Virus record (IMG/VR): IMGVR_UViG_3300025264_000107
Location: 1-24,768 of that record
Length of the DNA: 24,768 bases
Strand: one strand, 5' to 3'
Origin: a virus
Part shown: positions 5,486-19,305 of the stretch, one piece after another
Position numbering within the stretch: position 1 is the first letter of the stretch
Layout: each line of letters begins with the position of its first letter
Notes under the pieces: generated by a model
The model's database searches: none
What the model was told of the DNA's origin: nothing
What the model saw: the letters and a program-made list of their open reading frames with translations, nothing else
Program-made: the position numbers and the translations under genes

Positions 5486-5567
5486 CTTAGAATATAAATA
5501 GCTTTAAAAATCTTTTCAATATAATACTTTCTACTTGACTTATATCACTTTATATAATAAATTCAAT

Positions 5568-5582
5568 CGTCCGGTTCGGACG
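5568..5582. repeat. Perfect 6-bp GC-rich inverted repeat CGTCCG-GTT-CGGACG
   Basis: The only GC-rich element in a very AT-rich junction. The two 6-base arms are perfect and the loop is 3 nt. No T-run follows on either strand, so it is more likely a protein-binding or structural site than a terminator. It directly abuts the ATAGTA repeat cluster. Confidence 0.6.
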
Positions 5583-5722
5583 GTACTATAGTACTATATA
5601 GTACTAATAGTATTAGTAATAATAGTATTATTAATAATAGTACCCCCCCCTTTATACTATAGTAACTATAGTACCTATAGTAAGTTAATAGTACCATAGT
5701 AACTATAGTATCAATAGTACCG
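5583..5722. repeat. ATAGTA repeat cluster made of overlapping palindromes
   Basis: ATAGTA occurs 12 times on the plus strand in about 140 bp. Many copies sit in short palindromes that overlap one another: GTACTATAGTAC and GTACTATATAGTAC are perfect, ACTAATAGTATTAGT and TAATAATAGTATTATTA are odd-centred, and ACTATAGT recurs downstream. A run of eight C residues (5643-5650) splits the cluster into two halves. The cluster sits between the leftward packaging genes and the rightward early genes, so an operator array, origin or packaging recognition site are all possible. Confidence 0.75.
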
Positions 5723-6103
5723 CCAGAAAATCTGGTTACTAATCCAAACTGCTAAATCCTTAATTTTTAGCGCAAATGATCAAATAAGCACCTCAGGCCA
5801 TGTAAACGACATTAAAGACACGGCCTCTCTACTAATTCCAAAAATTTTAAAAAAATTATATGATTATGTCTGCCTCTCTTTTATAAAAGGGGGGCGCCGG
5901 TCTTTTCCAGATTCAGGTTGAGATTCCCAAGTTGAAAAAGTCATATCGAAAGTACATGAAAAACAGGTTAGAATATCCAAACCACAGCAATATTACCTGT
6001 TCTGGATTGTCGACAAGGAACTTATTTGAATCTCGAGCGTAGCATGAATTGCTTATTGACAATTCAATGCTTCGGCTTGCGCCCGTCCTCAGGGACAGCG
6101 GGC
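5723..6103. other. Non-coding region with a dense series of inverted repeats
   Basis: No convincing gene lies between 5486 and 6278. Instead I find, in order: CCAGA/TCTGG (5723-5735, 3-nt loop); AGGCC-A-TGT with ACA-C-GGCCT (5795-5826, one mismatch); GCCTCTCTTT with AAAGGGGGGC (5872-5895, TATA loop, two G-T pairs); AACAGGT-TAG-AATAT with ATATTACCTGTT (5962-6001, 3-nt bulge); palindrome TTGTCGACAA (6007-6016); AGCATGAATTG with CAATTCAATGCT (6041-6071, 8-nt loop); GCCC-GTCC with GGAC-AGC-GGGC (6081-6103, TCAG loop). Such a series could be a structured non-coding RNA, a replication origin or a packaging site. From 6104 to 6278 I see an AT-rich leader, a TTGACA without a good -10, and the ribosome site of the next gene. 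Confidence 0.6.
6017..6045 (+). promoter_or_regulatory. Possible degenerate copy of the phage promoter motif
   Basis: GGAACTTAT, 14 bp, then TAGCAT. The -35-like box and exact spacing match the three clear copies upstream of 7706, 8793 and 9332, but the leading G and the TATA box are changed. It overlaps the hairpin cluster and would point to the DUF932 gene. Weak. Confidence 0.25.
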
Positions 6104-6278
6104 AATAAACGGTCATTTATGAGGTGCCCTTGACATATTATAGGTCAGTTAATCCTGATGTTTAAAATCCAGTTAGCCATATAATAGAGTTGAGCGCCGA
6201 CCCAAATAGTAGCACCGTAATTATACAATAGGTACGGTATCTGTTGTATATTAAACAAATAAGGAAGGAAATAAAACA

Positions 6279-7320: not shown

Positions 7321-7355
7321 AAAAAGGGCCGGTCTTCGGATCGGTCTTTTTTTTT
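7321..7355 (+). terminator. Rho-independent terminator after the DUF932 gene
   Basis: GGGCCGGTC and GATCGGTCT form a 9-bp stem (three G-T pairs) closed by a TTCG tetraloop and followed by nine T residues (7347-7355). Seven A residues precede the stem, extending it and allowing weaker function in the opposite direction. It lies 20 bp after the DUF932 stop codon. Confidence 0.95.
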
Positions 7356-7380
7356 ATCCATTTTTTTATTTTATATGAAC

Positions 7381-7525
7381 AATTCACGTAAGTAGCGGAC
7401 TCAAAATATATATTACACCTATAATTCACGTAAGTATACCACATTACATATATTTTACCTGTAATTCACGTAATTAGATCAATTATTAGTGTATTTTATA
7501 GTAATAATTCACGTAACTAGACCGC
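7381..7525 (+). repeat. Four phased iterons, consensus AATTCACGTAAsTA
   Basis: Copies begin at 7381, 7423, 7463 and 7506, so the steps are 42, 40 and 43 bp, close to four DNA turns each. The 11-base core AATTCACGTAA is identical in all four. Similarity extends to about 20 bp: positions 12-14 read GTA, GTA, TTA, CTA and the next six bases are GCGGAC, TACCAC, GATCAA and GACCGC. Same-orientation, helically phased repeats beside an AT-rich tract are typical of initiator-binding iterons or of activator/repressor arrays. No second array is seen in the window. Confidence 0.85.
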
Positions 7526-18299: not shown

Positions 18300-18622
18300 A
18301 AAAAAATCCAAATAATATAAGGAGGGGTAAGCGTAACCGTCAGCGCGGTGCTGAACTGCAACGGCAGGTGGTACGCATGGCTAAGGAATTTAAGCTAGAT
18401 GCTTATAACCGTGATCGCGGCGGAGCCCAGCATGAAAAGGGTGATGTTGAGATTGAAGGAAAATATTATGGGTGTAAGCGCCGCAAGAGTATCGCCAGAT
18501 GGGTGAAGCCAGAGAAGCAGGAAAGTGGTGTAGTGATACGAGGCGATAGGGAAGACCCCTTTATGGTAGTACCGCTGGAACAGTACATGATGTTACTATC
18601 ACTAATAAAAAAAGAATTATGA
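18296..18622 (+). CDS. Resolvase-like PD-(D/E)XK protein with a changed active-site residue
   Basis: 108 aa. RGKRNRQRGAELQRQVVRMA (E20), then RDRGGAQHEKGDVEIEG (D50) and YYGCKRRKS (K61), then GVVIRGDREDPFMVVPLEQY. This order is that of the small phage Holliday-junction-resolvase-like nucleases, which normally read YxECKRR at the second acidic position. Here residue 59 is Gly (codon GGG at 18470-18472), one transition from GAG, so catalysis may be lost or altered. The rest of the fold looks intact. It is the last gene before stem-loop D; its TGA is the first base pair region of that stem. Confidence 0.6.
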   Translation: MKKNPNNIRRGKRNRQRGAELQRQVVRMAKEFKLDAYNRDRGGAQHEKGDVEIEGKYYGCKRRKSIARWVKPEKQESGVVIRGDREDPFMVVPLEQYMMLLSLIKKEL

Positions 18623-18679
18623 TAACCTCTTTAAGCGATCGTTTGGTTGGTATTAGATGGTTGTGCTAGGGGGTTATCA
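18620..18679 (+). other. Junction stem-loop D
   Basis: TGATAACCTCTT (18620-18631) pairs with AGGGGGTTATCA (18668-18679), 12 bp with two G-T pairs. The stop codon of the resolvase gene is the 5' end of the stem. After a 2-nt bulge AGC pairs with GCT (18634-18636 and 18665-18667). The 28-nt loop is G/T-rich and includes the palindrome CGATCG. The next ribosome site (AAAAGGAG, 18702-18709) is free. Confidence 0.6.
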
Positions 18680-18717: not shown

Positions 18718-18945
18718 ATGGCTTACGAACATGAAGATGGAACAGCAAGCCTGTTTCAAAATGACTATAAAGAAAATGGCGACAAACGTCCTGACTATAC
18801 TGGTAAAGGTAAAGTTGATGGCGCAATGAAAGAGTTCGCATTGTGGAAACGTGAGACAAAAGCTGGAAAGACTATGCTTTTTGTCAAATGGAGCGAGCCG
18901 CAAGAGAAATTTCAGTCAAAAAAAGGCGAACAAGCCGGTTTCTAA
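18718..18945 (+). CDS. DUF736-like small protein
   Basis: 75 aa, ATG behind AAAAGGAGTAAGTAA. MAYEHEDGTASLFQNDYKEN, then DKRPDYTGKGKVDG and FALWKRETKAGKTMLFVKW, matches a common phage protein with the order GTxSLFkN, PDYxGxxxxxG, W...GK.ff, related to DUF736. The fold is thought to be a small beta barrel; biochemical function is not established, though single-strand DNA or RNA binding has been considered. It ends 12 bp before the structured leader at 18958. Confidence 0.65.
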   Translation: MAYEHEDGTASLFQNDYKENGDKRPDYTGKGKVDGAMKEFALWKRETKAGKTMLFVKWSEPQEKFQSKKGEQAGF

Positions 18946-18957
18946 GGCCGACCTTTA

Positions 18958-19011
18958 ATAGGGTGTCTAATCGCCCCGATACGGAGCGATCACTGCACGG
19001 TGGACACCTAT
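18958..19011 (+). promoter_or_regulatory. Three-way-junction RNA domain
   Basis: P1: ATAG-G-GTGTC region (18958-18967, one bulged G) pairs with GACACCTAT (19003-19011). P2: ATCGC-C-CCG (18970-18978) pairs with CGG-A-GCGAT (18982-18990), ATA loop, one C-A mismatch. P3: CACT (18991-18994) pairs with GGTG (18999-19002), GCAC loop, with a T-G closing pair. P2, P3 and the 3' arm of P1 follow each other without a single unpaired base; only TA (18968-18969) separates P1 from P2. This compact fold precedes the start-sequestering hairpin. Confidence 0.65.
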
Positions 19012-19012
19012 A

Positions 19013-19064
19013 CCCAAAAACCCTTTTTAGAGCCGTATAGGGGATTCTAGGAGGGGTTTTTGGG
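19013..19064 (+). promoter_or_regulatory. 18-bp hairpin sequestering SD and TTG start of the 19060 gene
   Basis: CCCAAAAACCCTTTTTAG (19013-19030) pairs along its whole length with CTAGGAGGGGTTTTTGGG (19047-19064), with three G-T pairs, around a 16-nt loop. The 3' arm holds AGGAGG (SD) and TTG at 19060. In addition CCTATAC (19007-19013), which includes the 3' end of P1, can pair with GTATAGG (19035-19041) in this loop. The three-way junction and that contact exclude each other, so a two-state switch is possible. Confidence 0.7.
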
Positions 19065-19305
19065 GTCAGGCTGTACAAAAATTGGAAGGTACTGCTCTAT
19101 GTGTGGAATATCAGACTGGAACCCCAGATTGCAGGCAAAAGATGGTATTGAGCGCCAGTTTTGCGGTGCGGCTACCGGTTATGATACCAGAGTTGAAGCA
19201 TTGGATATATGCTGGCTGGAAATGACAAAGAGCGCCAAGACCAAATTTAGGAAAACAAAGAAAACAGAATATGAAACATTAGTATCGCATGAATTAAAAA
19301 AATGA
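19060..19305 (+). CDS. 81-aa cysteine-containing protein downstream of the RNA switch
   Basis: From TTG at 19060 the product is MGSGCTKIGRYCSMCGISDW..., with C5, C12-x2-C15 and a later FCGAATG, suggesting a zinc finger. AGGAGG sits about 5 bases upstream but is base-paired. An alternative ATG at 19099 (Met14) has GGAAGG at 9 bp; it would lose two cysteines. The Lys-rich C-terminus (KTKFRKTKKTEYETL) may bind nucleic acid. No family recognised with confidence. The stop overlaps the next ATG. Confidence 0.55.
   Translation: MGSGCTKIGRYCSMCGISDWNPRLQAKDGIERQFCGAATGYDTRVEALDICWLEMTKSAKTKFRKTKKTEYETLVSHELKK

Follow-up and report, generated by a model that had tools for sequence, protein, structure and literature searches.

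A long hairpin at the boundary between an ssb-like gene and a small Cys-rich gene of an uncultured virus: a candidate combined terminator and ribosome-binding-site mask

In phage T4, the leaders of genes e, soc, 49 and I-TevI form inhibitory structures that sequester the ribosome-binding site (RBS) (PMC3014915, PMC2988022). For e and I-TevI, late promoters located near the 5′ part of the hairpin yield transcripts without the inhibitory structure (PMC3014915, PMC2988022). T4 also offers a case of ssb autoregulation, as gene 32 is controlled through a structure in its own leader (PMC3014915). The hairpin analyzed here is similar to the leaders of T4 e, soc, 49 and I-TevI and of Aeh1 mobE in that a phage hairpin pairs both the Shine-Dalgarno (SD) sequence and the start codon of a downstream gene in a longer transcript (PMC3014915, PMC2988022). 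However, it differs from the e-type leaders in also resembling a terminator of the preceding gene. Its 5′ arm has no recognized promoter, and translational repression is what we infer for it.

The window, that is, the whole stretch of DNA that was analyzed, is a linear record of 24 768 bases from an uncultured virus (IMGVR_UViG_3300025264_000107). On its + strand an ssb-like gene of 75 amino acids (18718–18945; PHROG 18154, E = 2e-7), whose orthologs have SSB-like C-terminal tips (DPF or SPF), lies just upstream of the intergenic region in question. On the other side of this region, also on the + strand, is a small Cys-rich gene (19060–19305), which starts with TTG and codes for a putative zinc-binding protein with the motif M-x3-C-x6-C-x2-C. 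This gene matched no family in Pfam or PHROGs, and a search of bacterial genomes for its relatives, carried out in looking for the host, found none. The gene order (RusA-like resolvase, ssb, intergenic region, Cys-rich gene) is repeated in dozens of related viral contigs. Among named phages, the DNA search returned no matches and the protein search a few distant ones, while a DNA pattern scan for the locus revealed nothing beyond the relatives already known.

The boundary between the intergenic region and the Cys-rich gene is occupied by a long hairpin (19013–19064, + strand). Its arms (19013–19031 and 19046–19064) form 19 consecutive pairs, G-U included. The folding energy is −31.0 kcal/mol, compared with a mean of −13.9 for 200 dinucleotide shuffles, none of which was as good (z = −6.55). 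By a difference of 8 kcal/mol this is the best 52-nt fold in the window on either strand. The 3′ arm contains, on the + strand, the SD sequence AGGAGG (19049–19054), a U run (19057–19061) and, five bases after the SD sequence, the TTG start (19060–19062). SD sequence and start codon are thus paired in one stable stem, as in the T4 e-type hairpins, and on this point the original prediction holds.

The assignment of the start codon is based on homology. TTG 19060 (M-G-S-G-C) aligns exactly with the ATG starts of the same gene in distant phages (M-F-E-I-C and similar), and the first Cys of the protein is conserved in the alignment of relatives. Therefore, TTG is the correct start, and the stem encloses AGGAGG together with this likely start codon. 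A start at ATG 19099, outside the hairpin, had been named as an outcome that would speak against masking. It is ruled out by the M-x3-C homology; relatives do not share this ATG, which is located within the conserved Cys (CxxC) motif.

We compared the hairpin in six close relatives, the window itself and L001–L005. It is kept in all six, with 90% of cells paired and 12 of the 19 pairs invariant. Changes in the stem are one-sided only (C-G/U-G, U-G/U-A) and preserve pairing. Since no double-sided change, and hence no covariation, was observed among the six sequences, the evidence for the hairpin is its retention and not covariation. Additional C-G pairs extend the stem across the U run and TTG in two of the sequences, the window and L001.

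The same hairpin has the properties of an intrinsic (rho-independent) terminator. As in such terminators, an A-tract, a GC-containing stem and a U-tract are arranged in this order at the 3′ end of ssb. In contrast to them, the stem includes the SD sequence and start of the next gene, and the window has a U run of five, which is paired and has GGGG behind it. In other relatives the ssb stop codon is closely followed by a GC-rich stem-loop and its T-rich tail (e.g. AATAAGGGGGCTACGGCCCCCTTATT). In the clade of the window, this classical terminator has decayed (it is absent from the window), and the hairpin is the only terminator-like structure there. To score terminators we used a d'Aubenton-Carafa-type formula, which was taken from general knowledge and coded for this analysis. 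In thirteen other phages, the terminators behind ssb scored from −11.6 to +24.4, 10 of the 13 being positive. For the hairpin the scores were +9.6 to +18.2 in L002–L005, where the tail is UUUUUAUUUU, with TTTTTATTTT at the position of the U run that is shortened in the window. The window and L001 (tail only UUUUUGGGG) scored −4.4 and −3.6, respectively. Because the scores are positive in L002–L005 and slightly negative in the other two, the hairpin is likely to serve as the ssb terminator in the clade, with a weaker case for the window itself.

Our preferred reading, to which we assign a probability of about 0.55, is that the hairpin combines the terminator of ssb with an RBS mask from which the next gene is released in a manner similar to T4 e and I-TevI. 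In RNA derived from ssb, the hairpin would act as, or descend from, the intrinsic terminator. In read-through RNA from ssb it would bury the SD sequence and TTG of the next gene. With the RBS closed in read-through RNA, this gene would depend on RNA missing the 5′ arm, and the Cys-rich protein would be made mainly from RNA that is either started inside the hairpin or cut there. A sigma-70 promoter was not recognized in or before the hairpin, where the best scores were around or below those of shuffles. This result counts against the combined reading, as do the negative terminator scores of the window and L001, the one-sidedness of the pair changes in the stem, the weak or absent hairpin in more distant phages, and the lack of ATG, GTG or TTG at the homologous start of the Cys-rich gene in L002–L005. 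In these four sequences, translation may begin at ATT downstream of the hairpin or at TTG in its loop. If the combined reading is correct, the locus suggests a way in which a phage could merge the termination signal of one gene with a structure that covers the start codon of the gene after it. Its relatives provide an evolutionary series, from a separate terminator in most of them to the fused hairpin in the clade of the window, in which the fusion can be tested.

Alternatively, the hairpin might do no more than terminate ssb as an ordinary intrinsic terminator, and the SD sequence and start might lie in it by accident, owing to a tight gene boundary and without any regulatory role. Its position and the A-tract/stem/U-tract layout, the positive scores in four relatives and the loss of the ancestral terminator in the clade would all be explained in this way. 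However, the extra C-G pairs that close the U run and the TTG of the window and L001 weaken the terminator and strengthen masking, and it is in these two sequences that the score is negative. We regard a plain terminator as rather unlikely. It is improbable, in our estimate, that the hairpin is a translational operator, whether by binding of SSB, the Cys-rich protein or a host factor to the hairpin or to a conserved 64-nt element that overlaps its 5′ arm, or through processing of the stem by RNase III. The long stem located at the RBS, the sequence-conserved element overlapping it and the precedent of T4 gene 32, with ssb autoregulation through a leader structure (PMC3014915), would be in line with an operator, but the hairpin is not conserved beyond the clade of the window, and the 64-nt element is found also away from the Cys-rich gene.

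The original prediction went further, proposing a sensor domain coupled to translation control, with a three-way junction and a loop contact that exclude each other. Read as a riboswitch or similar sensor, the junction would be the ligand-binding part, in competition with that contact and with the RBS hairpin. The junction (18958–19011, + strand) can indeed be drawn in the window sequence, with nine pairs and one bulged G in P1 (18958–18967/19003–19011), eight pairs and one mismatch in P2 (18970–18990) and four pairs in P3 (18991–19002). The 7-nt complementarity between CCTATAC and GTATAGG, on which the loop contact depends, is present in the window as well. Folded alone, region 18958–19012 has a minimum-energy structure (−21.3) that joins only P1 and P2 and omits P3, while the full three-way junction appears as the centroid structure (−20.1); the fold has a z of −2.8, a quality reached by 3 of 200 shuffles. 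In favor of a riboswitch one might also cite the good fold of this stretch in L001 (z = −3.4) and the individual pairs of P3 and of the loop contact that are changed on both sides. In L002–L005, however, four P1 pairs and the outer P3 pair are broken and most inner P2 pairs are lost, the outer five pairs of P2 being what is retained among relatives. Compared with its own shuffles, the stretch folds little better in L003 (z = −1.0), and L004 adopts a different fold (z = −2.7). Across the six relatives, 76% of junction cells are paired versus 75% in shuffles, and the covariation score of the junction was matched by 170 of 500 shuffles. The loop contact fares similarly: its covariation is indistinguishable from shuffles, and it pairs in 57% of cells, fewer than after a register shift of +2 (62%). 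Nor was the junction seen in more distant intergenic regions. Rfam gave no match above the gathering threshold in the window, and permissive searches returned weak, chance-level matches only. Since the junction is broken in L002–L005 and its covariation is at shuffle level, a conserved sensor is not supported, and the region does not classify as a riboswitch by a conserved aptamer. A ligand sensor is thus very improbable, and the junction and the contact stand as pairings available in the window but absent in four of the six close relatives.

Phages without the junction nevertheless keep, by sequence, the 64-nt element (18999–19062 in the window). It is non-coding and can be aligned without gaps across 31 distinct sequences, with invariant columns A21 A22, T27, A31, A46, T50 A51 and T59–T63. 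In most comparisons its identity exceeds that of third codon positions of the flanking genes (0.69 versus 0.41–0.50 between the window and L158). A weight matrix of about 60 bits found a single copy per record in all five records scanned, 45 to 99 bits above the next-best place. Pattern scanning detected the element in 39 contigs, in 38 of them directly before the Cys-rich gene and in 36 of these 38 with ssb just upstream. In L101, L112, L114 and L119 it follows ssb and precedes a different gene. As the element is also present without the Cys-rich gene, it is doubtful that it simply serves this one gene as promoter or RBS. We also considered several other roles. Protein coding was rejected, as no frame rose above column shuffles and stop codons occur in every frame. 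A general phage promoter was rejected because the element is single-copy, and a sigma-70 promoter was not recognized in it, the best scores being around or below those of shuffles. The search of ten records for an RNA polymerase (PF00940) gave no match, but its controls were likewise silent, so that this result is uninformative. RNAalifold found no consensus pair in the element across phages. With the sequences placed in the register of the hairpin, pairing is possible in 84% of cells, chiefly owing to invariant A/T columns, while the middle is weak.

We tentatively propose, while considering it somewhat less than an even chance, that the element represents an undescribed class of phage cis-element. 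It would be non-coding, of fixed length and present once per genome tested. Dozens of marine phages have it in the interval that separates ssb from the gene after it, another group has it ahead of an unrelated gene, and in a further group it occurs, in diverged form, at a convergent junction. Such an element could be a specialized regulatory, replication or recombination site, and in the clade of the window it would have turned into most of the hairpin. Most likely, the hairpin is a terminator and RBS mask of a known kind, built on this conserved element. The diverged copies (L109:5319–5382, L107:5426–5489, L104:5492–5555, L102:5423–5486 and L108:5078–5141) are found at a convergent junction of rightward and leftward operons, not beside the Cys-rich gene, and have a central CCCG-TAAA-CGGG-like hairpin. 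Away from ssb, in G003:C1:16569–16600, the front part of the element has two matches that overlap each other (CAATACTTATATCCGATACTTGTATCCCGTAA) and contain the inverted repeat GATACTTGTATC.

A better candidate for a structured RNA in this neighborhood than the reported junction is the ssb leader, which folds into a hairpin at 18620–18679 (z = −5.3). Between clades the outer helix shows covariation, with five pairs changed on both sides and pairing kept. The covariation score, 0.406 versus 0.244 in shuffles, was reached by none of 500 shuffles, which for six related sequences is good, though not final, evidence. Like the T4 gene 32 leader pseudoknot, it is a structured RNA tens of bases before a phage ssb start (PMC3014915). 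Unlike that leader, it is a long covarying hairpin in which TTTGGTTGG (18642–18650) is kept, not a pseudoknot, and that it might be an ssb autoregulatory element of the gene 32 type is our guess from this analogy. Together with the 64-nt element, this hairpin is a concrete target in these uncultured marine phages, which form a large group. Just before ssb in L144 and L128, short complementary arms (TTGCC...GGCAA and ATCTC...GAGAT) flank the SD sequence of ssb, which suggests that structured ssb leaders may exist in other groups as well.

Several other sites in the window were noted. Four direct repeats about 42 bp apart (7360–7520), which share AATTCACGTAA, lie in a 404-bp intergenic region directly after a strong terminator (about 7326–7354) and are candidate iterons or promoters. 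A 793-bp gap between divergent operons (5486–6278), with CTATAGTA-type repeats at 5599–5728, is near the minimum of cumulative GC skew and is a possible origin or control region. Finally, GGGAACTTTT occurs three times (7643, 8737 and 9268) before genes on the + strand, compared with 0.17 occurrences expected by chance, and is possibly a phage-specific signal.
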